From Candidatus Magnetaquicoccus inordinatus (GTDB lineage: Bacteria; Pseudomonadota; Magnetococcia; Magnetococcales; Magnetaquicoccaceae), in contig NZ_RXIU01000008.1 in NCBI RefSeq assembly GCF_004217665.1, forward strand, positions 1-44,671: DNA of 44,671 nucleotides, given 5' to 3'. This document shows, one piece after another, positions 4,973-38,891 of the stretch. The number at the start of each line of letters is the position of its first letter. Within the stretch, counting starts at the first letter, position 1. Both the position numbers and the translations under genes were made by a program. The notes below the pieces were generated by a model that saw only the letters and a list, made by a program, of their open reading frames with translations, did no database searches and was not told where the DNA came from.

Positions 4973-6316
4973 CTATGTTACATCCGTTTCTTTAACAATC
5001 AATTTTGCAATTTCTTCATTGAGTTTCTGCCTGAACGCTTGAAATGCCTTGCGAACATCTTCCCAATCATCTGCCTCAATCAGTCCGTATAACCGCAAGG
5101 CTTGTGTTGCAACACGCACCGCACTCACCTCGGATAGGCGTGATCTCATCCACAAAGCCTCCTGCAGTGCGGATTCACTGTTCTGTAACTCAACAGCTCG
5201 GCTTAGGCTTTCCATGTGTTGTGAAAACTCAAACAAAAATATTGGCAACTGATCCGGCACTGTCTGCTGACTTTCTTCTGTTGTCGGCATCGTGACAATA
5301 CGGTGTTCATCTGTCTCATGCGCACCATCAGTCAGCAATTCGGCTTCTGCAACAGACCGCATCGCACCCGATTCCCCAGGTACACCCACACAATGTTCCC
5401 CAATGGGAACAACAATGGTGACCTCCGTCCATCCGTCATCGGAAGAGTTCATCTGGATTGTGCCGCCCATTGTTTCCACAATAAGCTTGGCGGAATAGGT
5501 ACCCAGTCCTGTTCCAGATGACTTGCCAGACGTGGCATATTTCTCAAAGAAGCTGCCTCGGATCTCCTTTGGCACAGCACCCTGGTTGCGGATCCTGACC
5601 ACTCCTCTATCCTCTTGCCCTTCCATATCGATGGTCACGACCCCTCCTTCGGGGGATGCCTCAAGGGCATTCTTGATCAAATTGGCCAGCATGGAGTAAC
5701 AAAGCACCTCTTCTCCACGGATGAAGAACGAGTTGCTTGCCACAACAGGCTTACCTTGAATCCTTGTCTCCAGAATCAGTCGATTGCCAGCAATCAATGC
5801 CGTTGCATCATTCCTGACACTCTGAATAATCGGCAGCAAATCGATCTCCACCACATCCAGTTGGTAGATACCTTGTTCCATACGATACAGGCCCAGCGAA
5901 AGGTTGATCATGTGCAAAACAGTTACACCCGACTTGCGTATCGTCTTGACATGCTTTTCCTGTTCGGCAGAGAGGGTGGTACTCAGGAGAAGGTCTGCAA
6001 AACCAATGACACCGTTCAATGGGGATTTCATATCGTGACGAGTGATCAGTTCGACATCCTGCTTTAATTTTTCTGCCTCGATGAGTGCCCTGTACTGGCG
6101 CTCCAGAGTCTCGTTTGCCTGAAGTAAATTTTCCTTGTATTCATTGAGCTGTCGTTCCGACTCGACCAATTGGCGGACAAGTTCTACCAGCAACTGGTCA
6201 TTGATTCGTCTCTCTGCCAACTTTGCCCGTTGTTCAACCAACAATAGTAGAACCCGGTCAAGCAGGGGATCCGCCCGATTGGCGCAGTCCATCAACAGGG
6301 TGTGCAGTTCAAGCAC
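4973..6316 (-). CDS. Histidine kinase with degenerate C-terminal Hpt-like domain
   Basis: About 447 residues. A coiled-coil N-terminus leads into the HisKA domain with phospho-acceptor His in ITRHDMKSPLNGVIGF. The ATPase domain follows, with N-box NLIKNALEASPEGG and glycine-rich GTGLGTYSAKLIVE. The last about 90 residues resemble the C-terminal domain of the large hybrid kinase at 13607-16621 (shared RVxxQAxRLxGxxExxxW pattern), but the position of its His is Leu here. No membrane segment is seen, so it is probably cytosolic and takes input from a partner. I chose GTG at 6316 because GGAG precedes it and it overlaps the ODP gene end only slightly; ATG at 6352 or 6292 is possible. The upstream oxygen-sensor-like protein is the obvious partner. 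Confidence 0.85.
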   Translation of the reverse strand: MLELHTLLMDCANRADPLLDRVLLLLVEQRAKLAERRINDQLLVELVRQLVESERQLNEYKENLLQANETLERQYRALIEAEKLKQDVELITRHDMKSPLNGVIGFADLLLSTTLSAEQEKHVKTIRKSGVTVLHMINLSLGLYRMEQGIYQLDVVEIDLLPIIQSVRNDATALIAGNRLILETRIQGKPVVASNSFFIRGEEVLCYSMLANLIKNALEASPEGGVVTIDMEGQEDRGVVRIRNQGAVPKEIRGSFFEKYATSGKSSGTGLGTYSAKLIVETMGGTIQMNSSDDGWTEVTIVVPIGEHCVGVPGESGAMRSVAEAELLTDGAHETDEHRIVTMPTTEESQQTVPDQLPIFLFEFSQHMESLSRAVELQNSESALQEALWMRSRLSEVSAVRVATQALRLYGLIEADDWEDVRKAFQAFRQKLNEEIAKLIVKETDVT

Positions 6317-7166
6317 GCGCCATCTCCAGAAGAACACCATCAATCCCCACATCCTCCAAATTAATCAAAATCTGGATTGTCTTGGCAATATCTTCCCGTT
6401 TGCACAGAATGGAACCATGTTGAGAAGCGATGATACGGGGATTGAGTACCTGCACTGCCGCAAGGGCGAAACGCAAAGCGGCATTGGAGGGCATCACCTG
6501 CCGATGGAACTGAACAATCCCGAAAAAGGGACACGAAGAACCGACTGTCTGACAAACCATCTTGCAGTCTGACGGAACAGCTTGATTGCATGCATGACAG
6601 CGGCGATCCACCTCCATGAAGAGTTGCCAGCCAGAACAGTGTGAGAGACTGCCAAAAAGATCACTGGAAAAAAGAATGCCCGTTTTTTCGTCATAGGTCA
6701 TAAAACTTCCCGCCGCATGGGCGTAGGGCGTTGGAATAAAACGAACTCTTCGCCCTGATTTCAACACCAATTGCAGAGCCATTTTATCAATGCAATGCAG
6801 TTCCGACCGGCAACCGTAGTGACTGATAAATGGATTGTTCTCACCCTTGGAGATCACTTTCAGATCTGCACGACCAATCATCTCTTCCAGATTGGGAAGA
6901 CTGCCACACAGATCAGGATCATAATGGTGGTAAACAAGATGGGAAATCGATCCAGGCGATACACCTGCCTGTAATATCTTCCGCATGACCGTACTGAAAT
7001 CCGGGCGACTGCCTCCATCAATGAGAACAGTTTCATCCCCATCAACAATCAAGTACGGATTGCACGAAAACCCACCCCCGGCATCATTATAACCGACCCA
7101 ATATACCCCATCAGCCAATGGGATTGGACGATCATGAGACACTTTTTCGCCAATCATATCTTTCAT
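6309..7166 (-). CDS. ODP-type metallo-beta-lactamase-fold diiron protein (oxygen/NO sensor-like)
   Basis: About 285 residues, without the flavodoxin domain of full flavodiiron proteins. The metal site can be followed: HHYDPDLCGSLP matches the flavodiiron pattern HxExDHxG with Glu changed to Asp and the second His to Leu; later ligands are His in PYAHAAGSF, Asp in LFSSDLFG and His in ASQHGSIL. A changed diiron site and missing flavodoxin domain are features of ODP proteins, which bind oxygen and pair with CheA or histidine kinases. The gene overlaps or abuts the histidine kinase downstream, supporting a sensor-kinase pair. Start is unclear: ATG at 7166 or 7205, neither with a strong ribosome site. 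Sensing oxygen is inference from the family. Confidence 0.8.
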   Translation of the reverse strand: MKDMIGEKVSHDRPIPLADGVYWVGYNDAGGGFSCNPYLIVDGDETVLIDGGSRPDFSTVMRKILQAGVSPGSISHLVYHHYDPDLCGSLPNLEEMIGRADLKVISKGENNPFISHYGCRSELHCIDKMALQLVLKSGRRVRFIPTPYAHAAGSFMTYDEKTGILFSSDLFGSLSHCSGWQLFMEVDRRCHACNQAVPSDCKMVCQTVGSSCPFFGIVQFHRQVMPSNAALRFALAAVQVLNPRIIASQHGSILCKREDIAKTIQILINLEDVGIDGVLLEMARA

Positions 7167-7287
7167 AAAATTATTACCAAAGAACGGACAATAACATGTA
7201 AACATCACCAATTTCGGACAACGATACCAGAACCTTACTGCATAAAACGACCAGTACCAGCAAGTCTTTCCACCTCAAAGCACCCCT

Positions 7288-8234
7288 TCATGGAAACCGA
7301 ATAGCAGGGGTGAGCATCTCACGGGCACCCTCGGCCTCGTGCCGGTTGCCTGCCCGTTGTTCCAACCATTCACTGGCCCGCTGCTGTCCTTTCGCGATCT
7401 GGGAACGGGTCATCTCTTTGGCAACTGTCTCACGCCATCGTTTGGCCAACCGATCCCTGTTGGAGGCGGCCAGATTGAGCCACATATAGGCGGTAACATA
7501 GTCTTTTGGCACTCCATACCCAAGAAAGTACATGGCTCCCAGGTTTCTTTGCGCTACGGTATGACCTTGTTCTCCGGCCTTGAGCCACCAATGGACAGCC
7601 AGTTTATCATCCTTGGCCACTCCCCGGCCCATTTGGTAACGGTCAGCAAGCTCCTCTTGGGCTTCGGCAATACCCTGTTGAGCCGCCTGTCGACACCAGA
7701 ACAACGCCTGCTTGGGATCCTTGGCGGTACCGATTCCCTTCTCCAGCATGACACAGATAACGGATATTGGGCTGTTTTCTCCCCCTGCGCGGCCGCCTTT
7801 TGCCACCACAGCACCGCTTTCTGATCACTTTTCTCACATCCGGTGCCATGATAATGCATATGGCCCAACCTGGTCTGTGCTCCTCCATGACCTTGTTCCG
7901 CAGCCTTCAGGTACCAGGAGCAGGCCAACGCACCATTTTTGGCAACCCCGTTGCCTGCAATATGGCGATTGGCCAATTCAAACTGGGCCTTGGCATAACC
8001 TTTGTTGGCGGAGCGATCAATCCATAGCAGCGCCAAACGATCATTGTTTGGAATAGTGCGCGTCAATGAATACATCATGCCCAGAATATACTGATAAACG
8101 GGATCACCTTCCTCAGCGAGTTTGTGCAAGGGGCCGAAGCTGCTCTCTTCCGCATGGCCAGCCGACGAGGGAACCACCCAAACGACGGACAGAACAAACA
8201 CTGCCAGGCAACGCTGAAACAAAAAACGCGGCAT
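7288..8234 (-). pseudogene. Secreted Sel1-repeat protein interrupted by a frameshift
   Basis: Two frames together encode one protein. The first (8234 to about 7760) has a signal peptide (MPRFLFQRCLAVFVLSVVW to AGHAEE) and Sel1-like repeats such as GYAKAQFELANRHIAGNGVA and GHGGAQTRLGHMHYHGTG. It ends within a repeat at AQGEKTAQYPLSV. The second frame resumes in the same repeat with VMLEKGIGTAKD and carries further repeats to the stop at 7288. The break lies at about 7750-7762. Sel1/TPR-like repeats act as protein-protein scaffolds, here in the periplasm. A sequencing error is possible, since the repeats on both sides are well kept. ATG at 8258 is an alternative start. Confidence 0.8.
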
Positions 8235-8241
8235 CTCCCAT

Positions 8242-9069
8242 TCAGTGCCCAAACACATTTACTGATGCGGCGACCGTTTCAGATTGCAGAAAGGCCAACT
8301 CGATACGTGTCAATAAATACAAGACCTCCCGTCCCAGATCTACCACATCGTTGTATACCGTCTCGGATGCACGGAAATTTTTCTTCCGCAAAAGACGAAC
8401 CGTCTCTTCTGCCTTGGCATGGAATTGATGGTGCTTTTCGTCCAACTCTTTAATGATCTTGATGATCGTTTCATCCTGACTCTTGACATCCTTGATCCAA
8501 ACACCCACAACACAGGATTCTGATGTCGACAATACGGCATCTTTTCCCCAGTGTTGGAACGCCCGCAACAGTTGCCTTGACCAGCGCAAATGCATCAATC
8601 TTGCATAACTCACATCCAGGACACCTCTTTTTTCAACATCCCCGTGTTCCGGGATATGTATATTGAACAAACGATGGATGAGACTCTTGACCGGATGTGC
8701 CGAAAAATCGCTCAATGGTTTATGTTCCAGATAATCCAGCTCCGCCTCGGTCACAAGATAGACGATATCACGGCTCAAACTGCGCAGTTGATTCATCTCT
8801 GCTTCGAGATTCTTCTGTTGGTCCGTAAAGATCAAGGCGACGAGACGATCGGCCGTATGGTGAAACGCCTCGTGAACCCTCACCAACTGTCGCACTGAAT
8901 CCAGGTGATACAGCTCCCTGATGCCATCACCATGAAGCCAGAGTCCCAGATCACAATCATTGCTGGTGCCCAGGTGAATCGTCTTCCGATGTTGCTGAAC
9001 CATCTCCTCCAATTCAGCTTCCCAAAGCACATGAGCAACACGAGCGGCACAGAAGTCAACTTGTTTCAT
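8242..9069 (-). CDS. Tandem CZB (chemoreceptor zinc-binding) domain protein
   Basis: 275 residues from ATG at 9069, which has AGGA seven bases upstream; ATG at 9156, overlapping the previous stop, is an alternative. Two copies of the CZB zinc site are visible. Copy one has His13 (VAHVLW), Cys39 (CDLGLWLHGDG), His66 and His70 (VHEAFH). Copy two has His (LMHLRW), Cys 26 residues later (SCVVGVW), then His 27 and 31 residues after the Cys (KHHQFH). These spacings match the 3His/1Cys site of known CZB proteins. CZB domains sense zinc or oxidants and usually sit on chemoreceptors or diguanylate cyclases; here there is no output domain, so the protein probably acts on a neighbouring kinase or regulator. 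Confidence 0.8.
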   Translation of the reverse strand: MKQVDFCAARVAHVLWEAELEEMVQQHRKTIHLGTSNDCDLGLWLHGDGIRELYHLDSVRQLVRVHEAFHHTADRLVALIFTDQQKNLEAEMNQLRSLSRDIVYLVTEAELDYLEHKPLSDFSAHPVKSLIHRLFNIHIPEHGDVEKRGVLDVSYARLMHLRWSRQLLRAFQHWGKDAVLSTSESCVVGVWIKDVKSQDETIIKIIKELDEKHHQFHAKAEETVRLLRKKNFRASETVYNDVVDLGREVLYLLTRIELAFLQSETVAASVNVFGH

Positions 9070-9155
9070 GATATATTCCTGACCAATATGTAACCACACA
9101 TCATCCTGTTTGATTCGACAGCATCCAGCAAGCAAACCCCTGTCCCAGCCAAGCA

Positions 9156-10073
9156 TCAATCCGTTTCCGCCCTGGCCTGTTCCGAGAAAAACATTGAATA
9201 ATCATGATCGTGCTGATTCACATGGTTCAAAAGCCACTCCAACAACCATCTGCGGATCTGGTGTACCGAGTCAGGATCCATGGCAATGATTGCCCTGTTA
9301 TACTCATTCAACTCCACAATGATCTCATCATGCCTCTCCTTGTGCTGGTCTGCCCTGGGATAGCCGTGGTGGCGAAGGTATGCCAATTCTGCACTGAAAT
9401 GAATTTTTGTGTAGGTAACGAGTTCAGCGAAAATTTCAGACATTGCCAGCCACTCGCTTTGATCAGGGGGCAGATCCGCCGCTATGGCAGTTCCAAGAAT
9501 TTCATCGATGTCTACCACCATATTGAGCAAATTTCTGTGGGCCTCATCGAAGGCCGGCACACCCACATTCACCAGTCTTTCGAACAATTTTTTATGAAAT
9601 TCTGATCTCATGTTGCCTCTGGTTTCGGGAACTGTATTGACAACGGTTGCCAGGATTGGATGATCACACTCTGCTTCGGCAAGTAAATGATACTCTTTCA
9701 GCTTGTCGAGCAAACTCCTGCGTCTGACAGGCTTGGTCAGAAAATCGGTGCAATATCCTTCAAAAAAAGCCTTCACAGCCACTTCCGGCGCATCACATGC
9801 AGTCACCATGATAATGACAGACTCTTTGTTGCCAACTCTGCCAAAGGAACGCTCCTCGACACGAATGGCCTGCAAAGCACTCAACCCGTCCATTATGGGC
9901 ATCATGACATCCAACAGAATCAAGTCGAACGGCGCTCCTTCAGACAGAGCTTCTCTTGCCCAGGTCAATGCCTCTTTGCCATTCGTTGCCACGCTGCACT
10001 CGCCATAAGAGCGAAGCAGTTGACTCAAAAGTACTCTGTTCTCCAACACATCGTCCACGATCAAAATTTTCAC
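9156..10073 (-). CDS. Response regulator receiver fused to bacteriohemerythrin
   Basis: 305 residues. Residues 1-120 are a receiver domain: DD pair in ILIVDDVLENR, phospho-acceptor Asp in FDLILLDVMMP, Thr/Lys in IIMVTA and FLTKPV. Residues about 170-300 are a hemerythrin domain with all expected diiron ligands: DEAHRNLL, YTKIHFSAE, HKERH, and HVNQHD near the end. Hemerythrin domains bind oxygen at a diiron site. The fusion may let oxygen binding and phosphorylation act on the same protein. It starts with GTG at 10073 behind GGAG. The stop overlaps a possible ATG of the CZB gene (TGATG), showing a tight operon. Confidence 0.92.
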   Translation of the reverse strand: MKILIVDDVLENRVLLSQLLRSYGECSVATNGKEALTWAREALSEGAPFDLILLDVMMPIMDGLSALQAIRVEERSFGRVGNKESVIIMVTACDAPEVAVKAFFEGYCTDFLTKPVRRRSLLDKLKEYHLLAEAECDHPILATVVNTVPETRGNMRSEFHKKLFERLVNVGVPAFDEAHRNLLNMVVDIDEILGTAIAADLPPDQSEWLAMSEIFAELVTYTKIHFSAELAYLRHHGYPRADQHKERHDEIIVELNEYNRAIIAMDPDSVHQIRRWLLEWLLNHVNQHDHDYSMFFSEQARAETD

Positions 10074-10132
10074 CTTTATAACTCCTTCGCTTTATTACTA
10101 AAGCCGACATCCCTGCCAAATCGATGAGCAAC

Positions 10133-12205
10133 TCAGTCAGTCGATTTATCCTTACCGGCATGCCTACTGATCAGTTCTGCGGATATAGCCATAATATCAC
10201 GTATTTGCAAACCTTTTGATCCTGTTTTCACCACTCGGCTCAAGGTAACGGCCCGACGACTGTAGCGGTAGAAATTGTTCCAGAAATCAGCCGGAAGATA
10301 CAATTGTCCGCTTGCATCAAAGGAAAACAGGTAGGCTTCTCCCAGATCAATCTGAAAAACCATGCGCAGATCCTTGATGGTGTCAGGCTGAAGCACAAAT
10401 TCCTCACCGGGCCGTTTGGCTGTGTGTCCCAACAACGAAGCCACTGAAAAAACAATTCCTCCTTCCGCATGGCGATCAAAAAGAATGGTATTTTGTGATT
10501 TGCCTTTTGGAGGCACCAGTTTCAGGTACGGTGCATGACGCAGGCGATCGATGGCGACCAGCTCTTGAGCATAGGGCTCCAATCCTGGTTTCGTGCGTGG
10601 CCGAGAGGAAACAGACGGCGATACCTTCTCCGCAGTGTGAGCCGCCACGCCTTCTGCAGGCAAGGCCGCAGAAACAGCTTTGGAAACCAGCTCCTCCGAC
10701 GCCGGTTTGCTCGCATCCGGAATCGCTTTGCTCGCCTTGCTGTCCAGAGCAGACGATACCTGTTTCTCCATTTTCTGAGCTGGTGGCTCCTGAAGAACAG
10801 AATCGGGAGCAATTGTCGGATCGGACTTCGTGGCTGTTTTTTCTGGCAATCTTTCTGCCTGGGGCGAAACGGGCGACAACGGACCGGGTGCCGAAAGAGG
10901 TGGGGTGGATTGGGCAACGGGAGCAGCCGGTTCGGGCACTTTTTCTGCGGGAGATTTGGGCCAATTCAGATAAAGCAGGACACAGATACCTGCGGCCATG
11001 GCTGCTCCGACCACCAGCCAAGGTCTCCTGCGACGGACGGGTTCTTCATTCGCCTGGGGCTCCTCTTTCCATTCATCAGGCAACAATTCTGCGGACTCTG
11101 GAAGAGAGGATGTCTCGGCCAATTGGTCCCATTCCATACTGTCTAACACCAACCGTATGGGTTCTTCTGTCGGAACTTCCAAGTCTTGGGAGGCTTCTGG
11201 AATCAACTCTTCCGGCACTCCTGGCTGTTCAGACTGTGCCGACTCGTCGGTTGGAACCATTTCCAGACCAGCAAGGAGGAATGGCTCTTCCTCCTGTTCC
11301 TCTCCATCTGCAGGCTGTGTTGCGGAAAGCGGTTCCTCAACGGGTATACCCCGGAGTTCTTCGTCCGATTCCACGGCCCCGCTTTGCAGTTCAAGGATCG
11401 CTTCCTGGCGAAATTTTTCTTCCAGTTCACCCAAGCGACCTTCTTCAAAAACATCTTGTTCCGCAGGCACCGACCCGGTCCCAACCATCTCTTCTGGAAC
11501 AGGCAGATGCTGGACCTGATGGGCTGACAATTGCGTGAGGGCAGCCAAAAGATCTGGCTGCAATACGGTGGCAAGCAACAGGTGCAACGATTTGCCGACA
11601 AACTGCTCGCCGATTTCCAAATCCTCGCCCAGTTTTGGCACGATATCGACTATGGTCCCGACAGTCGATACAGTCTCCTTCAGGTGATTAAAAGAGTCCC
11701 GTTTGGCACTCCAGGTGCCTGCCAGTGGCACCTCCAGACGATAGAACTGGAGCTGCTGAACCAGGGCTTCTGCCACCTCCCTGGGATAGTGCCGCAGGTC
11801 AAAGGAAACGGGAACGGGTTGTGACCAGGCTGTAAGCTTTTCTTCAATATCACCAATTACATCATCAATCCTGACTTCGTTGCTGGCAGAGACATCACCA
11901 AACAGACCTTGCAGCCTGCTCATCCCTCTTTCCAGGGAAGCAATCGTCACGGTGTCGAGTAGCGCCTGATCTTCCAGGAGGCCTTCCAGCAGGCGCTCAA
12001 GGGCCTGACTTAAACGAACCACACCGTCCAGATCATGAAATCCGGCCGTACCACGGATTCCTCGGCAGGTTCTCAGGAATGCCTCCAGTACGGGCGTCCT
12101 CGCGCTCGGCTCCCTGGTCGACAACTTGCGGACATCATCCAGCCCTTGCAAAATCCGGCGCTGCGACTCCTGTACGAACAATTCCAGGATGGTGGGTTCC
12201 GACAT
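10133..12205 (-). CDS. Kinase-less CheA-like membrane protein (degenerate Hpt, P2/ADR-like, TM, unknown C-terminal domain)
   Basis: 690 residues from ATG at 12205, behind GGAG. Residues about 5-110 look like the CheA P1/Hpt domain, but the motif that should contain the phospho-His reads RTCRGIRGTAGF, so the His is lost. Residues about 170-240 (LKETVSTVGTIVDIVP, then LLLATVL) follow the pattern of the CheA P2/ADR-like domain. A long acidic, Pro-rich linker follows, then RRRRPWLVVGAAMAAGICVL (about 391-410), part of one membrane helix. The last about 130 residues form a folded domain I do not recognise. Kinase, dimerisation and CheW-like domains are missing, so it cannot phosphorylate; a scaffold role is inference. 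Confidence 0.7.
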   Translation of the reverse strand: MSEPTILELFVQESQRRILQGLDDVRKLSTREPSARTPVLEAFLRTCRGIRGTAGFHDLDGVVRLSQALERLLEGLLEDQALLDTVTIASLERGMSRLQGLFGDVSASNEVRIDDVIGDIEEKLTAWSQPVPVSFDLRHYPREVAEALVQQLQFYRLEVPLAGTWSAKRDSFNHLKETVSTVGTIVDIVPKLGEDLEIGEQFVGKSLHLLLATVLQPDLLAALTQLSAHQVQHLPVPEEMVGTGSVPAEQDVFEEGRLGELEEKFRQEAILELQSGAVESDEELRGIPVEEPLSATQPADGEEQEEEPFLLAGLEMVPTDESAQSEQPGVPEELIPEASQDLEVPTEEPIRLVLDSMEWDQLAETSSLPESAELLPDEWKEEPQANEEPVRRRRPWLVVGAAMAAGICVLLYLNWPKSPAEKVPEPAAPVAQSTPPLSAPGPLSPVSPQAERLPEKTATKSDPTIAPDSVLQEPPAQKMEKQVSSALDSKASKAIPDASKPASEELVSKAVSAALPAEGVAAHTAEKVSPSVSSRPRTKPGLEPYAQELVAIDRLRHAPYLKLVPPKGKSQNTILFDRHAEGGIVFSVASLLGHTAKRPGEEFVLQPDTIKDLRMVFQIDLGEAYLFSFDASGQLYLPADFWNNFYRYSRRAVTLSRVVKTGSKGLQIRDIMAISAELISRHAGKDKSTD

Positions 12206-12262
12206 GAAACGTCTCCTCGATTGGATGCTCGACCGACAACCCCTCAATCCGGCATGTCAGGA

Positions 12263-13189
12263 TCATTCAATGGTAAAATACCGGTCGAATTTCATATCCA
12301 ACAATTTTTGTCTAACAGATGAGCTACAGTTGATAATTCTTGCAGGTTCCCCATGCTGTCCGCGAATATGCTGATTCAGCAGCAAAAGAGTTCCGAAGGC
12401 TGCCTTGCCAACATGATAAGTATCCTGAAAATCAAGCACAAAAATTGACTTCTTGGACCTGCTTCGGTAAATATTGGCAAAATCGTTGCGGCAATTGTAG
12501 TCAAACATCCTGGCGATGCGGACTGTGACAACATCCTGCCCTGTGTGGCCCTTTTCGACAGTAACGACAAACTGATGGTCCGTATCGACCACACGATCAT
12601 GAAAGAAGGAGATGTCAATTCCCGGCACTTGCAACTGGGACAGCTCTTTCATAACTTCTTTTTTACAGTTGCACAATACTATCCCGCCATCATTTTCCGC
12701 TTCCAGCAATAGCAACATGGCAATGCCTGACGAGGCGACATGCACGACATTTGTAAAATCTAAACGGTACAGCCGTCCACTGGCCTTTCCTTCTTGCATG
12801 CTGTAGAATTCCGTCCAAATATCGGCACTGAATTTACCTCTAAAATGGGCTATTGTTTCTCGTTCTGTGTGATGGATATGTTTCAAACCGCTTCTTGATT
12901 GATCAATCAATTGCGGAAAAATGCTTGTTTCCTCAACAGAAACAATGGAAAGGCCAGCATCGGTCACTCTGGCTACTTTCACCTTTTCTTCCACTTTCTG
13001 ACCATTCAACTCAAGCGTTAAAATACCTTTCTTGCCAACTGGAATTGAATGAGAAGTCAAACTCAGGACAAGAAAAACAGCATGTTCGTTGATATCCAGG
13101 GCGTTGCCCGGATGCCCCTCAAACTCCATAGGCAATCCACAAAACACCCTTTCCTTGCTTCTGCGATTGAATGATGCGGTATCTGACAT
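12263..13189 (-). CDS. PilZ-like / double STAS-like regulatory protein
   Basis: 308 residues from ATG at 13189, a few bases after the response regulator. The N-terminal about 95 residues begin RRSKERVFCGLPMEFEG and contain short beta-rich stretches, resembling PilZ-type domains, though the canonical RxxxR and DxSxxG c-di-GMP motifs are incomplete (NALDINEHAVFL). Two further segments look like STAS domains: around residues 105-200 (LYRLDFTNVVHVASSGIAMLLLL) and 215-308 (IFVLDFQDTYHVGKAAFGTLLLL). The STAS Ser/Thr phosphorylation site is SSG in the first and replaced by GKA in the second. STAS proteins act in partner-switching. Assignment is by pattern only. Confidence 0.6.
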   Translation of the reverse strand: MSDTASFNRRSKERVFCGLPMEFEGHPGNALDINEHAVFLVLSLTSHSIPVGKKGILTLELNGQKVEEKVKVARVTDAGLSIVSVEETSIFPQLIDQSRSGLKHIHHTERETIAHFRGKFSADIWTEFYSMQEGKASGRLYRLDFTNVVHVASSGIAMLLLLEAENDGGIVLCNCKKEVMKELSQLQVPGIDISFFHDRVVDTDHQFVVTVEKGHTGQDVVTVRIARMFDYNCRNDFANIYRSRSKKSIFVLDFQDTYHVGKAAFGTLLLLNQHIRGQHGEPARIINCSSSVRQKLLDMKFDRYFTIE

Positions 13190-13196
13190 CTCACAC

Positions 13197-13604
13197 TCAT
13201 CCTTCTTCGTCAGGAATCAATTTTAACTTGCGCATTTTTTCCAACAATAACTGTCGAGTGACCGGCTTGGTCAAATAATCTGAACACCCACCCTTGAAGT
13301 AGGCCTCCATGGCTTGCAGGGAGGAGTCCATGCCGGTCACCATGATGATGGGAATCTCCTTGGCTGTCGGCTGGACCCGTTTTTCGGCAGCCCGCATCCG
13401 ACCCAGTGTCTTCTGACCATCCATGACAGGCATGATAATATCCAGAAAGACGATGTCATAAGGCTCTCCATCCTCCAGATCGGTGACGAACAGTTCAAGG
13501 GCGGCCTTGCCGTCACTGGTCATGTCGCACTGACCAAAAGATTTCAAATAATCCCTGAGCAGTTTGCGATTGTGAAGTTCATCGTCTGCAATCAATATTT
13601 TCAC
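13197..13604 (-). CDS. Single-domain response regulator
   Basis: 135 residues, a receiver domain alone. Acidic pair in ILIADDELHNR, phospho-acceptor Asp in YDIVFLDIIMP, Thr in IIMVTGMD and Lys in YLTKPV are all present. It starts with GTG at 13604 behind AGGAG and begins three bases after the end of the hybrid kinase gene, so it is its likely partner. It closely resembles the receiver of the hemerythrin fusion at 9156-10073 (ILIxDDxxxNRxLL, then TKPVxRxxLL), suggesting local duplication. With no output domain, it probably works CheY-like or as a phosphate relay. Confidence 0.92.
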   Translation of the reverse strand: MKILIADDELHNRKLLRDYLKSFGQCDMTSDGKAALELFVTDLEDGEPYDIVFLDIIMPVMDGQKTLGRMRAAEKRVQPTAKEIPIIMVTGMDSSLQAMEAYFKGGCSDYLTKPVTRQLLLEKMRKLKLIPDEEG

Positions 13605-13606
13605 TG

Positions 13607-16600
13607 CTATTGCTCCTTGTTGCTCAACAAAAGAATCACCTTATCGACCTGTTGTGCCAGATTCTTGCTTATGTTGGCAGCACTGTCCCATTCACCCATC
13701 TCCACCTGTCCGCTCAGACGGACAGCCTGCGCACTGACCCTGGAAGCACCGATATGTCCTGCCAAATCCCTGAACCAATGAATGGCGCGCATGACCCCAC
13801 CGGCGTCCTCCCTGTCCAATCCTCTTTGCAACTGTTCAAGTCGCCCTCCGGCTTCTTGTACAAATTGATCTTGCAACCGGGCCAACGCCTCCTGGTCCAT
13901 CTCGTTGGGGGTCAGAGTCACTGCCGCACGAACCGGTTTCGATCTGGCAAACGGAGCAACCGCTGCCACCAATTGTTGTACCCGATAGGGTTTCAGCAAA
14001 AAACCGTTCATGCCAACGGAAAAGCAGCGATCCCGCTCGTTCATCATACCCATGGCGGTGACGGCCACGATGGGAATCTGCGGATTGCCGACCTCCTCCG
14101 GAGTTCCTTCACGGATGCGCACGGTGGTCTCAAAACCGTCCATCTCCGGCATCTGCAAATCCATTAGAATGAGGTCGAACGCTTCAACCCGCAAGATGGC
14201 CAGTGCCTCCAAACCATTGGCAGCCGTACGAACCCGATGCCCCTGTTTCTGCAAAAGGAGACTGGCCAGCCTTTGATTCTCAGTCAAATCATCGACCAGC
14301 AAGATGCGCAGCGACTTCTCGCCCCCTTCCTGCACCATCGGCCGAGGGTTGGGTGAATGATCGTCGGCAGGTACCGCCGCGTTGTCCCTCGAAAAAATTC
14401 TCAGCAGTTTGGCGGCACTCACCGGCTTTTTGACAATGAGTGGCGCCGGAAAAAAACCTGACGGATCCAGTGTCAAGACCGATGAACGGGCTGACATCAT
14501 CAATATCGCCGGTACGGAGCCACTCGCACCGGCAGCGATCGGCAGTTCACCCGTTTGCAGGATCACCTCATCTACCATGACCCAATCAAAAGGGTGGTCC
14601 CGGGTTTGTGCCAATTCACTCAGCATGGCCTGCATGTCTGCCACCAGGACGATCTGAGCACCATGCCCCGTCAATATCTCCTCCAGGATGGCCCGACCGG
14701 TAGTATGGCCATCTGCAACCAGCACTCTTGTTCCTGACAGTACCTTTCGATCAGCGGCTTCCCATTTGCGCCGACGCTTCAAACCTCCCGTTCGTTCCCT
14801 GGCTCCGGGTTGATCGTCCACACCCAACTCCAAGGAGAAATAAAAACAACTCCCTTGACCTGACTGGCTGGTCAGGAGCAGTTGTCCACCCATCAAACGC
14901 ACCAGATGACGGGAAATGGCCAGTCCCAGGCCGGTCCCCCCATGTTTGCGTGCCACCGAGCCATCGGCCTGGATAAAATTCTCAAAAATTTTTTCCTGAT
15001 CCCCCCTGGATATGCCAACACCCGTATCCGTTACTGAAAATTGCAACTTGACCACCTTGCTGGAACTCTCTTCTGATTGAAATCGCTTTACTGCCAGCAC
15101 AACCTCACCAGCCTGGGTAAACTTGATGGCATTGTTGATCAGGTTGACCAGAATCTGCTTCAAACGCAGCGCATCTCCCAGCAGATAGGGCGACAGATCC
15201 TGGGCAACACGACAGTACAGTTCCAATCCTTTCTGATGCGCTTTCACTGCCATCAGGTTGCACACATCATCCAGCAGACGCACCAGATCAAAGGCTGCAC
15301 ACTCCAAGATGAAATGTCCCGCCTCTATCTTGGAAAGGTCAAGAATACCGTTGATCAGATCCTGCAAGGAGAGGGAGGAGCTGTTGATGATGGCAAGGTT
15401 TTCTTTGATCTCACTGCCGGACATCTCCGTATGGCACATCAGATCGGTCAAACCAATAATGGCATTCAGCGGACTTCTGATTTCGTGACTCATGTTGGCC
15501 AAAAACTCGCTTTTGGCCCTGCTGGCAGCCTCTGCTTTTTCCTTGGTCTCTCGCAAAGCTGTATCCATGCGGGATCTCCAGATAAGATTGGCCAATGAAC
15601 CAGATACGCCATCCAGTAACGCCTTGAACTCATCCTCTTGACACTTTTTTCCCATCGGCATCTGCAGATACAGAACACCGACAGACTCCTTCCCCCAAAG
15701 CAAAGGCACACACAGGTGCAGAGGTTGTTTCCGGTGATTCTGTCCGCCCCCCTGCTTCTGATCTGCCGGCATGAATACCTCCAGGGAGAAGAGTGGAACC
15801 CCTTCCTGGTAACAGTGACAAACATTGACAGACACATAAGGACAGACATGAGTCTTCGTGGACCATGAGTGTGGTACACTGGCAAACAGTTGCAATGGCT
15901 GATCCTTGTCAAACGCCAAGAAAACAGCCCCAACAAAACTATCTGCAGCAACGCATTCCATAAGGGCAATTCGATCCATCGCCCGCTGCAACAACTCTTC
16001 CAGAGGCCCTGTTTCCAGCGAGATGCGCAACAAGTCAGCGATCAGTTGCTGTGTCTGCAATGCAGAGAAAGCCCTGCGTTCCAATTCCTTGACATGGCTC
16101 AACTCCCCTACATTCTTGTCATACAGCAATTCGGCTACCTGCAGGGTGTCCTGCAACACCGATGAAAACTGCTTGCGGGCTGTCATATCCTGAAAACTGG
16201 CCATTAAGCCTGGTCTGCGTCTGAACTCGACCAATACCAAATTGATTTCCAGTTCAATGCGTTGACCACTGCTGTGCAACCCACTGGCCTGTAATTTTTT
16301 TGCGTAGGGAAAGAGGCGTTCAGCAGGCTGGGAGGCCAAATCGCGCAACCCTACCCGGTGTCTTTCTTGCAATTCCGGTGGGATGATACAGGCATCAATC
16401 GCCCTTCCCAATACCGCCTCTCGTTGCAGACCAAACAACTGTTCTGCAGGCGTGTTGAACTCCAGTATCCGTCCTTCGAGATCCGTAATGACAACAGCCC
16501 CCATTATATGGTCCAGGAAAAGACGAATCTGGGAGTCCAGATGGCCAGCAGACTGACCTCTCCTCTCTGACAACCGTTCGGGAAAGACTACTGGACGACG

Positions 16601-16621
16601 CTCCCCATCATCCTCTTTCAT
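13607..16621 (-). CDS. Hybrid histidine kinase: PAS, GAF, HisKA, ATPase, two receivers, Hpt-like
   Basis: 1004 residues from ATG at 16621, behind GGAGGGGG, overlapping the end of the previous gene by 14 bases. Order: PAS (about 30-150, IMGAVVITDLEGRILEFN), GAF-like (about 195-355, rich in His/Cys such as VCPYVSVNVCHCY), HisKA with phospho-His in MSHEIRSPLNAIIG, ATPase with NLINNAIKFTQ and GTGLGLAISRHLV, a weak first receiver (VMVDEV), a canonical second receiver (FDLILMDLQMPEMDG, LLKPY), and a C-terminal Hpt-like domain (AIHWFRDLAGHIGA, keeping the His). No membrane helix is seen. This is a BarA/ArcB-like multistep phosphorelay layout. The gene overlap puts it in the same transcript as the magnetosome genes. 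Confidence 0.93.
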   Translation of the reverse strand: MKEDDGERRPVVFPERLSERRGQSAGHLDSQIRLFLDHIMGAVVITDLEGRILEFNTPAEQLFGLQREAVLGRAIDACIIPPELQERHRVGLRDLASQPAERLFPYAKKLQASGLHSSGQRIELEINLVLVEFRRRPGLMASFQDMTARKQFSSVLQDTLQVAELLYDKNVGELSHVKELERRAFSALQTQQLIADLLRISLETGPLEELLQRAMDRIALMECVAADSFVGAVFLAFDKDQPLQLFASVPHSWSTKTHVCPYVSVNVCHCYQEGVPLFSLEVFMPADQKQGGGQNHRKQPLHLCVPLLWGKESVGVLYLQMPMGKKCQEDEFKALLDGVSGSLANLIWRSRMDTALRETKEKAEAASRAKSEFLANMSHEIRSPLNAIIGLTDLMCHTEMSGSEIKENLAIINSSSLSLQDLINGILDLSKIEAGHFILECAAFDLVRLLDDVCNLMAVKAHQKGLELYCRVAQDLSPYLLGDALRLKQILVNLINNAIKFTQAGEVVLAVKRFQSEESSSKVVKLQFSVTDTGVGISRGDQEKIFENFIQADGSVARKHGGTGLGLAISRHLVRLMGGQLLLTSQSGQGSCFYFSLELGVDDQPGARERTGGLKRRRKWEAADRKVLSGTRVLVADGHTTGRAILEEILTGHGAQIVLVADMQAMLSELAQTRDHPFDWVMVDEVILQTGELPIAAGASGSVPAILMMSARSSVLTLDPSGFFPAPLIVKKPVSAAKLLRIFSRDNAAVPADDHSPNPRPMVQEGGEKSLRILLVDDLTENQRLASLLLQKQGHRVRTAANGLEALAILRVEAFDLILMDLQMPEMDGFETTVRIREGTPEEVGNPQIPIVAVTAMGMMNERDRCFSVGMNGFLLKPYRVQQLVAAVAPFARSKPVRAAVTLTPNEMDQEALARLQDQFVQEAGGRLEQLQRGLDREDAGGVMRAIHWFRDLAGHIGASRVSAQAVRLSGQVEMGEWDSAANISKNLAQQVDKVILLLSNKEQ

Positions 16622-17198
16622 GCTCCACCCCCTCCATGCTTTCAACGGCATGGAAAAGACCGAAGGTCACCATGTAGGGGACAGCAAGTTGCTCGTTACC
16701 GATACGAATGTCATAGACTCCCTGGCGGGAGTCCTGCCGCCAAACCAGTCGATAGCGCACCAGATGGCCCGGCTCGGCGGAAAAGACGATCTTGACACGT
16801 CGGGTGATCTGGCTTCCAAACTCAACACGCAGGTTTTTTTTGAGTTCCTCCTGAACCACCGACTCCAGTACGGGCCAGAGAATGGATTTCATGTTGGCAG
16901 TCAGCGTCTGTTCACGGCCCACACTCAAACCCACGGTGGCCGTGCGGGTAAACTCGTGTTCGCTGACCAGCATGGTGGTACCGTACCGGTTATCCAGCGG
17001 AATCTCTTCTGTCGCCAACACAACAGGCTGCTCCTGGATAAGCGACTCGGCCAGAATTTGAATCGGCGGCAAAGAGGCGTTGACGAAGGGAATCCAGCCC
17101 CCCTGTTTTTGCTGCGCATCAATCAACTGGGGCAGATATTTCTTGCCCAGCAATCCACCAACAACGGCGGCCAATCCATAAGGAATCAGTTGCAGCAT
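16608..17198 (-). CDS. Unrecognised membrane-anchored protein after mamT
   Basis: 196 residues from ATG at 17198, preceded by GGGAGG at eight bases. The N-terminus (MLQLIPYGLAAVVGGLLG) is a likely membrane anchor. The rest is soluble, mixed alpha/beta, with a segment like a secretion-type or lipid-binding fold (VKIVFSAEPGHLVRYRLVWR). I do not recognise the family. Placed directly behind mamS and mamT in the same run, it is a candidate magnetosome-associated protein, but its stop also overlaps the hybrid kinase start, so it could belong to signalling, for example as its membrane partner. Confidence 0.6.
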   Translation of the reverse strand: MLQLIPYGLAAVVGGLLGKKYLPQLIDAQQKQGGWIPFVNASLPPIQILAESLIQEQPVVLATEEIPLDNRYGTTMLVSEHEFTRTATVGLSVGREQTLTANMKSILWPVLESVVQEELKKNLRVEFGSQITRRVKIVFSAEPGHLVRYRLVWRQDSRQGVYDIRIGNEQLAVPYMVTFGLFHAVESMEGVEHERG

Positions 17199-17243: not shown

Positions 17244-18092
17244 TCAAGCCGACGGTTGGCCATCGGTTGCTTTTTTCTCTGTGACCATTGCCTGCATCTC
17301 CTCCAAAAAGCGGGGGAGATCCTCATGCAATTGGGCCATCAGATCGTGTGCCTGCACAATGATTTCCAGGTTGTCGCGAAACAGCCGACCCACATGCTGG
17401 AAGGGAGTGACAACTATCTGCAGTGCCTGTTGGGTGCGTTCAAAAGAGGCCTGGCATTTCTGGATCTCTTCGCTGACATGGGCCAGCATTTGGGAAATTT
17501 CCCGATCCGTGCCGCTCCGCTTGCCCTGCAAGAGGTCGTTGAGCTTTTGCAGGGCAGAGTCCTTCATCCTTTCCGCCTGTCTGCCCTCCTCCTCAAGCAT
17601 TTCAATCAACGGCTTCAGATAGATCATCAATCGTGGGTCAATCCGTCGCTCCAACGCCTGGAGAATCGTACTCTGCTGATTTTCCACCTTGGTGAACAGT
17701 TCGGGAACCTTGTTCAGTAGCTCCAACTGGCCTGCGAAGGGAGAGAGCGTGTCAGCAGAGGCAACCGACTGCTCCGACAATCTTTCCGTCAAAGCGGTCA
17801 GCATCGACTGAACGCGGGCCACCTCCTGGCGGACCTCTGCCAACTCCTGTTTCAACTCGGCATTGACCGGACTCTCCTCTGGGGTTGCCTTCGTCTGGCT
17901 CAGTGTGTCCATTCGGGTCACAAAGCCGTTGATGCTGGCGGCAATCAGTTCCATCTGTCCCAGCTTGTCATCCAGCCGTTTAACGCGACTTTCCGTGGAA
18001 AGATGGACCTCAACCACCCTCTTCAGCAGGTTTTCCAGGATGACGATCCGATTGTGTACCCCATCCTCTTCGGAACCAACTTGGTTTGGCAT
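17244..18092 (-). CDS. Unrecognised coiled-coil protein after mamT
   Basis: 282 residues from ATG at 18092, with GGAGAG seven bases upstream; an in-frame GTG at 18113 overlaps the mamT stop but has no such site. No signal peptide or membrane segment is seen. The sequence is heptad-rich throughout (HNRIVILENLLKRVVEVHL; VNAELKQELAEVRQEVARVQ; ALTERLSEQ; HVSEEIQKCQASFERTQQAL). This suggests a long cytoplasmic coiled coil. I do not recognise the family. The tight link to mamT makes a role at the magnetosome or in the adjoining signalling complex plausible. Confidence 0.6.
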   Translation of the reverse strand: MPNQVGSEEDGVHNRIVILENLLKRVVEVHLSTESRVKRLDDKLGQMELIAASINGFVTRMDTLSQTKATPEESPVNAELKQELAEVRQEVARVQSMLTALTERLSEQSVASADTLSPFAGQLELLNKVPELFTKVENQQSTILQALERRIDPRLMIYLKPLIEMLEEEGRQAERMKDSALQKLNDLLQGKRSGTDREISQMLAHVSEEIQKCQASFERTQQALQIVVTPFQHVGRLFRDNLEIIVQAHDLMAQLHEDLPRFLEEMQAMVTEKKATDGQPSA

Positions 18093-18109
18093 TGCAATCT
18101 CTCCTTGAC

Positions 18110-18628
18110 TCACTGAGTTTGGACATAGACCAGTACATCATGACACTTGATGCAGCGCCCGGAAGGCGGATGCGGCCGGGACGAGTTGGGCAAGATCGGA
18201 GGCCCCACCTTGTGATAGACAGAAATCTGCTCCCAGACCTTGGCCACGGGCGTTGCCGGCTGGCTGCCCGCTGGCAACCCACCCTGAATCAGATGACAAT
18301 TGGTGCAGGGCCCCCAACTGGGATGAGGCATGGCCGCTCCGGGAACGATGGTGGGAATGCGCTTGACCAGCATCTTTTGCAGGCGCGAAGGCTGAGGAGC
18401 GACCAACTCCAGCACCGGCGCATTCAACGCCGGCTGGGTTGGCTTCGGCATGCGCCCCAGAACCTCTCCCTGAAGCTGTGGTGAGGGATCCCACAACCGC
18501 AACGCTGCCCCCGCCTTGTCCCACGAACCGTCGCCCAACAACCCAACACCGAGGACAACCACCAGGACAAGGGTGCCCGCAATGGCCCATACCGTGGGCG
18601 AAAGGAAGTTGAAAACGCGCATCATCAT
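18110..18628 (-). CDS. mamT: Magnetosome magnetochrome protein MamT
   Basis: 172 residues from ATG at 18628 (MMMRVFNFLS), just past the mamS stop. An N-terminal membrane helix (VWAIAGTLVLVVVLGVGLL) is followed by a linker and two magnetochrome units, each with a c-type haem motif: CTNCH and CIKCH, each preceded by a Pro/His stretch (AAMPHPSWGP, SSRPHPPSG). In known magnetosomes MamT is a membrane-anchored dihaem protein thought to help set the Fe(II)/Fe(III) balance during magnetite formation. Position directly after mamB and mamS fits the mamAB cluster. Confidence 0.88.
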   Translation of the reverse strand: MMMRVFNFLSPTVWAIAGTLVLVVVLGVGLLGDGSWDKAGAALRLWDPSPQLQGEVLGRMPKPTQPALNAPVLELVAPQPSRLQKMLVKRIPTIVPGAAMPHPSWGPCTNCHLIQGGLPAGSQPATPVAKVWEQISVYHKVGPPILPNSSRPHPPSGRCIKCHDVLVYVQTQ

Positions 18629-18629
18629 C

Positions 18630-19223
18630 TTACCGCAACTTGTTGGACCAGAGTGCAAAACCCTCATCGTTGCGCAACTGACAGGTACGCCCATCCATGC
18701 GGATCCACTTGGCATAGATCATGGGCACCTGACCACCCTTCTCAAAGGTGAAGCCAGTTCCATCCACCGTGGCATCATGGCGCAACGGGCACCCCAGATA
18801 GGTCAGAAACCAGCCGGGGCCTACCGAAATGCGGCTCTCCTTCCCCTGGGGATCCTGGAGCCACAGATGCAACTGCCCATCACTTTGCGGCTGCTCGGAA
18901 ACCTGTTGCACCTGACCGCTGAAGTTCACCCTGGGCGCCTTTTGCAACAGAACCATCCCCCCTGTGGGGTCACGCCCTCCGGCCATCGCGTCTGCCCGCG
19001 TGGTGGCCACCACAGGAACCATACGCAAAGACTCCTGTCCAGCCGGGGTCAGCAAGGCATTGCTGGCTGCTTGCGGGCCTGCCCCTGCGGCAAGCGGCTT
19101 GCGCTCCTGGGTCGTACCTTCCGGGTTGCTGTCCACAAACAACGTCACCACCGCCCCTGCAAGCAGCAACAGCAAACCTCCGGTAACGATCCAATCTCCT
19201 GTTGTCATGGGTCGCTTGTTCAT
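18630..19223 (-). CDS. mamS: Magnetosome protein MamS
   Basis: 197 residues from ATG at 19223, one base after the mamB stop; the longer open frame upstream is ignored because it would run into mamB. One N-terminal membrane helix (DWIVTGGLLLLLAGAVVTLF), a variable linker, then a C-terminal domain of about 95 residues (FSGQVQQVSEQP, SVGPGWFLTYLGCPLRHDA, MIYAKWIRMDGRTCQLRNDE). That domain matches what I recall of MamS, which controls crystal size and habit. No haem motif. Placement mamB-mamS-mamT is the usual order. Two conserved Cys (GCPL, TCQL) may form a disulphide, an inference. Confidence 0.8.
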   Translation of the reverse strand: MNKRPMTTGDWIVTGGLLLLLAGAVVTLFVDSNPEGTTQERKPLAAGAGPQAASNALLTPAGQESLRMVPVVATTRADAMAGGRDPTGGMVLLQKAPRVNFSGQVQQVSEQPQSDGQLHLWLQDPQGKESRISVGPGWFLTYLGCPLRHDATVDGTGFTFEKGGQVPMIYAKWIRMDGRTCQLRNDEGFALWSNKLR

Positions 19224-19224
19224 G

Positions 19225-20109
19225 TCAATCCGAAGCCTCCTCTGGGGTGAGAAAGAATTGCATGCTGCCAATATTCTCAACGCTGTGTTTCAGTTTCTCT
19301 TTCAGAGCGGCCAGAATCAGATCCCCCTCGAATACCTTCAATCGGCCATCCACCCGCAGATCGGCTTCCACATAAAGCGTCTCGCCCAGACTCCGAGCCC
19401 GCAGATAGTTGATACCCACCACACGGGGAAAGCTGCGGATAATTTTATACAACTCCTCCAACTCCTCCACGTCGGGCGAGGAGTCCATCAAATCGTCAAC
19501 CGCCTCAATAATCAGCTCCACCCCAATTTTGATCACCAACAGGGAGAGCAGAATGGCCGCCAGAGGATCGGCAATGGGAAAATCCATGATGGTGGCAAAA
19601 AAAAGCCCGACCACCATCCCGACCGAGGAGAAAGCATCCGAACGATTGTCCCAGGCGTTGGCCATGATGGCAGGGCTGTTGTTTTCAATGGCCACACACT
19701 TCTGGTAGTGAAACATCAACTCGTTGCCCACCGTGGAGACCACGGCAGCAACCAGCGCCATATTTTCCGGGGCGGCATAGGTGCGATTGATGATACTCAT
19801 CAAGGCATCCACCAGGATGAAAACCGACCCCACCGCCAGAATCAAACCAACAATACCGGAGGAAATATGCTGAATTTTTCCATAGCCATAGGCAAACTTG
19901 TCATCCGGGGGACGGTCTGAAATACGCAGACTGATCAAGGTGAAGACACTGGCCAGCAGATCAGCCAGTGAGTGAAAGGCATCGGCCATCAACGCCGCAC
20001 AGTTGGTTACCAGGGATACAATCACCTTGTAGACCACCATGAAGACATTGAACCAGATGGAGTACCAAGTCACTTCATCACGACATTGGGCACAATGAGG
20101 ATATTTCAT
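19225..20109 (-). CDS. mamB: Magnetosome cation diffusion facilitator MamB
   Basis: 294 residues, full length. N-terminal CAQC, then CDF membrane helices: ALMADAFHSLADLLAS carries the transport Asp residues of helix II (DAFHSLAD), and WDNRSDAFSSVG those of helix V. The C-terminal cytosolic domain (about 205-294) has the usual ferredoxin-like fold pattern. MamB is required for magnetosome membrane invagination and works with MamM to move iron into the vesicle. The start overlaps the mamQ stop by four bases, showing coupling. It is related to MamM at 26281-27261 but clearly of the B type by context and the C-terminus. Confidence 0.94.
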   Translation of the reverse strand: MKYPHCAQCRDEVTWYSIWFNVFMVVYKVIVSLVTNCAALMADAFHSLADLLASVFTLISLRISDRPPDDKFAYGYGKIQHISSGIVGLILAVGSVFILVDALMSIINRTYAAPENMALVAAVVSTVGNELMFHYQKCVAIENNSPAIMANAWDNRSDAFSSVGMVVGLFFATIMDFPIADPLAAILLSLLVIKIGVELIIEAVDDLMDSSPDVEELEELYKIIRSFPRVVGINYLRARSLGETLYVEADLRVDGRLKVFEGDLILAALKEKLKHSVENIGSMQFFLTPEEASD

Positions 20110-21416
20110 GGCCTGTTCACCTCGACAGAAGGCGGCACCTCGCCAGCAGGCTGGGCCGGAAGAGAGGAGCCGACGGTTGTTTCCATAGGTCCAGGTAACA
20201 CCTCATCCCTCTTGAGCGGCTCTGGTGGCGCCGCCGCATCGACCTTGGCAGGCGATGCCTCAGGAGCAGCAACCTCTGGCAGTGGGACAACGACCGGCTT
20301 GACAACCTCAACCGCAGGCGCCGCTACCGGCAAGAGGGCTTCAGGGACCTTTGGCTGCAGTATGGGCGCCGGTGCGACGCTCTCAGGAACAGCGACCACG
20401 GCTGGCTTGGCCTCCTTGGCTGGAGTCACTGGCCCGACAACGGCGTCGGGTACCGCACTTTTGCTCTCCACCCGCTTGTCCGCTTGCGCGTTCCCCGAAA
20501 CCGGCGCCGGAACGAAGGTCATGGGCGAACGGGAAACCTCCCCTTTCCCATCCTGGGGTGCAGAAGCGCCACTCGCTTCGCCCCCGGAGGTCGTCTGCTC
20601 GCGTCGGGCATTGTTGCCCTGATGCGGTTTGCCACTCTGATGGTTGGAGGTGTCAAACTCCATTTCCGGGATCAAGCGAATAAATTTGTTGCCGTTCAAA
20701 TCCATGTTGGCATTTTCCGGCCCAGGTTCTGCCGTAAAATAGGCATGGCGTTTGAATCCCAACACCTTGGCCATGATCGACCAGGGAAACGAAGTCACGG
20801 TCGTGTTGTAGATGCGCACCTGTTCGTTATACTCATCCCGGCGCTTGCTGATCATGTTTTCGATATCCATCAGCTTATCCATCAACTGCTGATAGGTGGT
20901 GGAGGTCTTGATATCGGGATACTGCTCCACCAGGGCGAACAGACGCGCCAGGGCCGATGATGGCAACTCCCCGCCCACAGGGGCCACAGGGGTCATGCTG
21001 GCCTGCTTGCTTGCCGAGCGACCTGCCATGTCGATGCGTCCATCCGAGACATAGCGAAAAACCTCCTGTTCCAGCATGGCATGGTTCAGGGTCAGATTGA
21101 CCAGGTTGCCAAACAGATTGGAGCGTCTTTGCAGGGCATCGTGGATGTGGCCTCGCGCGGATAGCACCATCTCTTCGGCGGCGATGAAGCGGTTGAAATT
21201 GTAAAAGGTCGTCCCCAACAGAATGAGGGCAGCACCAACCGAAGCCGCCAGCACCAGATTTCTGGTTCTGGTGACTGGCAGCGGCATGGTGCGAGAGGCT
21301 TGTTCTTCCTGGTAGAGTTGGCGCATCAGCTTGCGCATGCGTTGCATGCGCTCGCTGCTGGTCATTTCCAAACCAGAGCCGTCAATCTCTTCCAAAGGGT
21401 CTGACTTATCCGTCAT
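20106..21416 (-). CDS. mamQ: Magnetosome LemA-like protein MamQ with long Pro/Ala-rich tail
   Basis: 436 residues. Residues about 1-45 are cytosolic (ERMQRMRKLMRQLYQEEQ), followed by a membrane helix (NLVLAASVGAALILLGTTFY) and a LemA domain to about 230 (AAEEMVLSARGHIHDALQRR, VEQYPDIKTSTTYQQLMDKL, RIYNTTVTSFPWSIMAKVLG). MamQ is needed for membrane invagination. The family is usually about 270 residues; here about 170 extra residues follow, first Ser/Gly-rich, then Pro/Ala/Val-rich with no obvious fold. The start overlaps the mamA stop and the end overlaps mamB (ATGA both sides). Confidence 0.92.
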   Translation of the reverse strand: MTDKSDPLEEIDGSGLEMTSSERMQRMRKLMRQLYQEEQASRTMPLPVTRTRNLVLAASVGAALILLGTTFYNFNRFIAAEEMVLSARGHIHDALQRRSNLFGNLVNLTLNHAMLEQEVFRYVSDGRIDMAGRSASKQASMTPVAPVGGELPSSALARLFALVEQYPDIKTSTTYQQLMDKLMDIENMISKRRDEYNEQVRIYNTTVTSFPWSIMAKVLGFKRHAYFTAEPGPENANMDLNGNKFIRLIPEMEFDTSNHQSGKPHQGNNARREQTTSGGEASGASAPQDGKGEVSRSPMTFVPAPVSGNAQADKRVESKSAVPDAVVGPVTPAKEAKPAVVAVPESVAPAPILQPKVPEALLPVAAPAVEVVKPVVVPLPEVAAPEASPAKVDAAAPPEPLKRDEVLPGPMETTVGSSLPAQPAGEVPPSVEVNRP

Positions 21417-22099: not shown

Positions 22100-22123
22100 G
22101 GATTCTTCATCCTCTTCCAAATT

Positions 22124-24948: not shown

Positions 24949-24949
24949 G

Positions 24950-38879: not shown

Positions 38880-38891
38880 GAGGAGAATCCG

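Follow-up and report, generated by a model that had tools for sequence, protein, structure and literature searches.

A probable signalling tail of the mamAB operon in 'Candidatus Magnetaquicoccus inordinatus' UR-1, with a conserved tandem-CZB protein and lineage-specific predicted diiron modules

The DNA analysed here is a window of 44,671 bases on contig RXIU01000008, the magnetosome contig in the metagenome-assembled genome (MAG) of the uncultured 'Ca. Magnetaquicoccus inordinatus' UR-1 (PMC6783814), and the subject is a run of signalling genes that follows mamT on the minus strand. On balance, we lean towards reading this run as the signalling tail of the UR-1 mamAB operon, in which a conserved core was supplemented by the UR-1 lineage with two diiron modules, and which would have the sensing mechanism and behavioural output proposed below. 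The genes and ligand residues present, their conservation and linkage, and the co-transfer rest directly on the analysis. How oxygen sensing is connected with magnetosomes in magnetotactic bacteria is the question on which the named genes of this block may bear, and an aerotaxis receptor complex has only recently been worked out in one magnetotactic species (PMC12442639). A sensory block that resides in a mam operon and moves between families together with mam genes provides named candidates for such a link.

From mamM (27261) to a histidine kinase gene (4973), every gene lies on the minus strand, many of them overlap and no gap exceeds 86 bp, and by this layout the signalling genes are an uninterrupted continuation of the predicted mamAB operon. 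The upstream part of the run (18110..27261) carries mamT, mamS, mamB, mamQ, mamA, mamP, mamO, mamN and mamM. It is followed, in order, by genes for a coiled-coil protein directly after mamT (17244..18113), an unknown protein conserved in the block and adjoining CZB genes in other families (16608..17198), a hybrid kinase with the architecture PAS-GAF-HisKA-HATPase-(degenerate REC)-REC-Hpt (13607..16651), a single-domain receiver (13197..13604), a protein with two STAS domains, whose PilZ-like N-terminus was recognised by eye only (12263..13189), and a membrane-anchored protein with a degenerate Hpt/CheA-P1-like N-terminus (10133..12247). Then come the receiver-hemerythrin fusion, the tandem-CZB protein, a frameshifted Sel1-repeat gene, the ODP (oxygen-binding diiron protein) and its kinase. 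Eleven genes after mamT are thus counted, matching the '11 genes downstream of mamT' reported for UR-1 and WMHbinv6 and described there as hypothetical and chemotaxis proteins (PMC6783814); that work concerns the same contig, and its main text does not cover domains, CZB, the pairing of ODP or the wider distribution. The initial annotation of this DNA had placed in one run a receiver-hemerythrin with all ligands, an ODP-like protein and an adjoining kinase, and all three are indeed encoded where it located them on the minus strand. It omitted the tandem-CZB and Sel1 genes lying among them, and upstream of its stretch the run goes on uninterrupted through six further genes, for signalling or unknown proteins, to mamT-mamM.

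The distribution of these genes was followed in a sample of 48 Magnetococcales genomes and 350 others of the phylum, labelled G000 (UR-1), G004 (WMHbinv6), G006 (YD0425bin7), G012 (nW5bin3) and so on. More than twelve genomes, from several families, have the same block order after mamT, with the whole block or most of it in G018 (family f2), G031 (f4) and G023 (f7). By this comparison the conserved core comprises the coiled-coil protein, the unknown protein, the hybrid kinase, the receiver, the double-STAS protein, the membrane pseudo-Hpt protein and the tandem CZB, the latter being the conserved, predicted metal-binding member, while the hemerythrin and the ODP are lineage-specific additions. 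In G029 (family f13) the whole block is present, and its MamK and CZB are 84% and 52% identical to those of the window, as compared to 57-62% for MamK and 32-35% for CZB in its congeners G039 and G044-G047, in whose fetched mam regions the block was not found. Because of this contrast, the hybrid-kinase/REC/STAS/CZB block appears to have moved with mamAB between families. The initial annotation had linked the sensors to the magnetosome genes through position. For the sensory block a link by more than position is now supported, since the operon is continuous, the order after mamT is kept and the block appears to have moved with mamAB; it does not extend to the diiron pair as a conserved core. 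The CZB and the core block are conserved with mam in Magnetococcales only, and the hemerythrin and the ODP are not conserved. The run is better described as a conserved signalling tail with the tandem CZB at its core, to which lineage-specific diiron modules were added. Between UR-1 and WMHbinv6, for which a recent island transfer was previously reported (PMC6783814), positions 6135-12100 (about 6 kb) differ by about six mismatches, whereas the hybrid-kinase and mam part is 82-99% identical per kb. Such near-identity next to more divergent flanking island genes implies that the sensor part 6135-12100 may have been exchanged most recently. A sharp dip to 82% at 14001-15000, in the receiver/linker region of the hybrid kinase, suggests a recombined or fast-changing segment.

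The stand-alone tandem-CZB protein (8242..9159, minus strand; orthologues suggest a start at 9069) scores 55.4 bits against Pfam (cut-off 29.4) and has two predicted zinc sites of the 3His/1Cys type, formed by H43, C69, H96 and H100 and by H190, C216, H243 and H247. The 3His/1Cys and CxLGxW signatures of CZB domains are present, the second unit reading CVVGVW in the window, and among 30 orthologues 21 columns are invariant, of which 8 make up both predicted sites. Of the 48 Magnetococcales genomes 34 have the tandem CZB, and all 350 others of the sample lack it. In about 20 genomes a tandem or single CZB lies on the mamK contig within roughly 5-23 kb; a random gene of a 4-Mb genome would fall so near mamK in about 1% of cases, a figure that is no formal test since the genomes are related. 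In the remaining genomes CZB is on another contig than mamK, reflecting either real separation or a contig break, MAG contigs breaking many neighbourhoods. Two arrangements are seen: CZB after mamT as in the window, or beside mamH in other families, as with the single-CZB gene adjoining mamH in MC-1 and relatives. As to the four-helix fold of CZB domains, the model is all-helical, and its match to the DgcZ CZB (3t9o; probability 0.98, TMt 0.73) has an E-value of 1.3 and is only suggestive; no PDB sequence match was obtained for the tandem CZB. The 3His/1Cys zinc motif and a cytosolic location are shared with CZB-only proteins and the CZB domains of DgcZ, TlpD and McpA (PMC8262984, PMC13370339); the window protein differs by having two CZB units and no output domain, by its restriction to Magnetococcales in the phylum sample and by its linkage to mam genes. 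As a separate observation, G027, which we take to be Magnetococcus marinus MC-1, encodes CZB and hemerythrin together at three places, each time within one open frame of about 800-1030 aa (CZB/hemerythrin positions C1:358337/357923, 735546/735942 and 3631587/3631164), and zinc and diiron sensors would accordingly be combined in single proteins of this MC-1-like genome.

The first of the diiron modules is the ODP (6309..7211, minus strand; PF19583, 2.1e-54) with the kinase gene that overlaps it. All six expected ligands are present (H96, D98, D100, H165, D184 and H265), and the set HxDPD / H / D / H is invariant in the 14 sequences aligned. The initial annotation had regarded the HxDxDL site as changed; HxDPDL is normal when compared with 6qrq and 6qnm (HQDPDV) and is changed only in relation to flavodiiron proteins. 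Identity as a flavodiiron protein was itself rejected, HxDPDL standing in place of HxExDH and the 300-aa protein having no second (flavodoxin) domain. The best PDB matches of the AF2 model (mean pLDDT 82.8) are 6qrq, 6qwo, 6qnm and 6r9n (TMt 0.75-0.84), so that the fold is predicted to be that of the ODPs of Treponema denticola and Thermotoga maritima (6qnm/6r9n and 6qrq/6qwo), which have the same HxDPD...H...D...H ligands, likewise no flavodoxin domain and a sensor-less partner. The window protein differs from them in its partner gene, which encodes a histidine kinase instead of a chemoreceptor, in a four-Cys insert (C205, C208, C220 and C227) and in being conserved beside mam genes, if only locally. 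The coupling of ODP to chemoreceptors was reportedly described in PNAS in 2019, and the PDB titles agree; such coupling is a trait of the known sensor ODPs and does not enter into how Pfam defines PF19583. The partner (4973..6352, minus strand; HisKA 3e-9, HATPase_c 4.7e-17) is a soluble histidine kinase with neither a predicted membrane span nor a sensor domain, consisting of an N-terminal coiled coil (about 95 aa), HisKA with H106, HATPase_c and a C-terminal Hpt-like stretch. H106, the N-box and GTGLG, as expected of a histidine kinase, are invariant in 6 orthologues. The pair is retained in G006, G009, G010, G011 and G012, lying away from mam genes in G009 and on short contigs in G010 and G011. 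Neither CZB in magnetotactic bacteria nor ODP-kinase pairs were found described in the open-access papers searched, among which most subscription papers are missing.

The second module, the receiver-hemerythrin fusion (9156..10073, minus strand; Response_reg 5.8e-18, Hemerythrin 9.3e-9), has a complete receiver active site (D7, D8, the phospho-acceptor D55, T91 and K114) and all seven diiron ligands that bacteriohemerythrins hold in a four-helix bundle, namely five His, one Glu and one Asp (H179, H225, E229, H244, H248, H284 and D289), an assignment made on residues. The hemerythrin part scores 73.8 bits against TIGR02481 (cut-off 51.75) and 36.3 against Pfam (cut-off 25.3), and stays under the stricter cut-off of NF033749 (75.9 vs 84). 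Chimeras of CheY-like and hemerythrin domains with the same architecture, four of them in PMC2556348, were listed there without function or magnetosome context, unlike the present fusion. Hemerythrins near mam genes, with a proposed role in magneto-aerotaxis, are known from Magnetofaba australis IT-1, Magnetococcus MC-1 and Magnetospirillum (PMC5088516, PMC3934378, PMC3197154); unlike these, that of the window is fused to a receiver and lies inside the continuous mamAB run. The UR-1 genome (546 contigs, 4,143,644 bases) contains 19 hemerythrin and 4 ODP matches in its 4.14 Mb, giving by chance about 0.1 and 0.02, respectively, in the 22-kb operon. Taken alone, the hemerythrin could have been placed there by chance, and the combination of hemerythrin and ODP is unlikely to have arisen in this way. 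In another arrangement the trio of ODP, kinase and hemerythrin again adjoins the same block in G012, where the ODP-kinase pair has the opposite orientation and is followed by another hemerythrin protein.

For this signalling tail, a mechanism can be proposed in which oxygen and zinc binding, signalling partners and output are predictions from sequence. The ODP would be a detachable subunit for oxygen or redox state and would switch, by protein contact, the sensor-less kinase whose gene overlaps its own, as modelled on ODP with sensor-less cytoplasmic chemoreceptors. The hemerythrin domain would make phosphorylation or binding of its receiver oxygen-dependent, the tandem CZB would report labile zinc or redox state, and the block could adjust swimming polarity, the oxygen set-point or a magnetosome-related behaviour. 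As phosphodonor of the receiver-hemerythrin, a hybrid-kinase Hpt would be more likely than the ODP kinase. The initial annotation had instead suggested a relay in which the ODP kinase phosphorylates the receiver-hemerythrin, both being gated by oxygen. This is improbable and found no support, although the two proteins are co-encoded in G000, G004 and G006 and the ODP kinase lacks both a receiver and, in its Hpt-like tail, the phospho-His; the Hpt-like stretches of this tail and of the membrane protein were aligned by eye, are below the Pfam threshold and have the acceptor His replaced. The ODP-kinase pair occurs without the receiver-hemerythrin in G009-G012, and the receivers closest to that of the fusion (57-61%) are single receivers directly after large hybrid kinases (G000:C490, G004:C4 and G001:C52) and the receiver beside the hybrid kinase in the G020 mam block. 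Since the closest relatives are encoded beside hybrid kinases, a hybrid-kinase Hpt is favoured.

Several observations weigh against the proposed signalling tail and its function. The block contains no output domain that would connect it with flagella or crystals. Both diiron modules seem dispensable to the block, the ODP-kinase pair adjoining it in four genomes (G000, G004, G006 and G012) and the full-length fusion being confined to three (G000, G004 and G006), so that the fusion as a general feature of magnetosome islands was rejected. MC-1 (G027) has magnetosomes without the block, with only the single-CZB gene near mamH. Furthermore, deletion of two hemerythrin-like genes of the Magnetospirillum (MSR-1) island gave no phenotype, for which 23 hemerythrin homologues elsewhere in MSR-1 may compensate (PMC3197154). 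It is conceivable, if rather doubtful, that the sensors are passenger genes, brought behind mamT by shuffling of the island and serving general microaerobic regulation unrelated to magnetosomes. The hypervariable far end of the region, with transposase fragments, Sel1, DUF486 and Rpn, would fit such an origin, as would the ODP-kinase pairs far from mam in other genomes and the 19 hemerythrins of UR-1, but the core holds the same order behind mamT in several families and moved with mamAB. Unlikely, too, is a function in metal homeostasis in place of aerotaxis, by which tandem CZB, ODP and hemerythrin would serve as buffers or reporters of zinc and iron for the transporters MamB/MamM and for magnetite formation. 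Of all members the CZB protein has the closest tie to mam genes; it consists of sensor only, lacking an output domain, and zinc availability is known to elicit a response of CZB domains (PMC8262984, PMC13370339). Against this, the remaining block is two-component signalling, and in other proteins the targets regulated by CZB domains are chemoreceptors and diguanylate cyclases.

Relatives of the window ODP, collected from a scan of GTDB genomes, occur in Firmicutes, Desulfobacterota, Nitrospirota, Nitrospinota, Riflebacteria, alphaproteobacterial magnetotactic bacteria and others. In 76 of 79 relatives a four-Cys insert, mostly CX2CX5CX6C or CX2CX11CX6C, lies between the fifth and sixth ligands; it is missing from the solved ODPs and from a second Magnetococcales ODP group (L072-L074), and is possibly a second metal site. 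The gene downstream of the ODP starts at a median distance of -4 and overlaps or nearly touches it (<=15 bp) in 63 of 66 cases. Among 69 downstream genes scanned, HD-GYP-type HD (23), SpoIIE (16), HisKA (15) and GGDEF (12) are found, a total of up to 66 of 69 should no gene appear under two families. No comparable concentration is seen among the 66 upstream neighbours, where the largest signalling family numbers 7. On the simplest reading, the ODP would be a sensor subunit coupled to variable outputs, like the known ODP with chemoreceptors, and the wider relatives suggest a widespread detachable diiron sensor. The broader proposal, which we regard as evenly balanced, is a large undescribed ODP subfamily with a four-Cys metal site (CX2CX5-11CX6C), acting as a detachable oxygen/redox subunit for the output enzyme of the overlapping gene (kinase, PP2C, HD-GYP or GGDEF) in anaerobic and microaerophilic members of several phyla, with one pair recruited into the Magnetococcales magnetosome operon beside a zinc/redox sensor that, within the sampled phylum, is confined to this order. 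If this pairing is confirmed, oxygen/redox inputs would be assigned to many kinases, phosphatases and c-di-GMP enzymes of anaerobes that are now orphans.

Some further features of the window can be added. In the membrane-anchored protein (10133..12247) the phospho-acceptor His of the N-terminus is replaced, RTxRGxxG is invariant, one likely transmembrane segment spans about 409-427, and the C-terminal 118 aa form a domain that is well conserved and matches no family of Pfam or NCBIfam. No structured RNA was matched by Rfam in the window, and terminator-like sites in a consensus scan of the run were no commoner than in shuffles, which is uninformative on the operon end or internal terminators. 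The Sel1-repeat gene (7288..8258, minus strand) is frameshifted near 7751 and split over two frames, with mismatches at 7751-7752 relative to G004, where it is intact (322 aa), pointing to either an assembly error or a recent frameshift; the gene is absent from G006. At the far end of the run, 867-2240 holds two overlapping frames of a transposase-like gene, identified by eye. Upstream of a mamD-like gene, a cluster of EH-signature, MotB and large coiled-coil genes occupies 36682-43721, and in G008 and G013 such a cluster directly follows the CZB gene, with a receiver coming after it that is 54-55% like the one in the receiver-hemerythrin.

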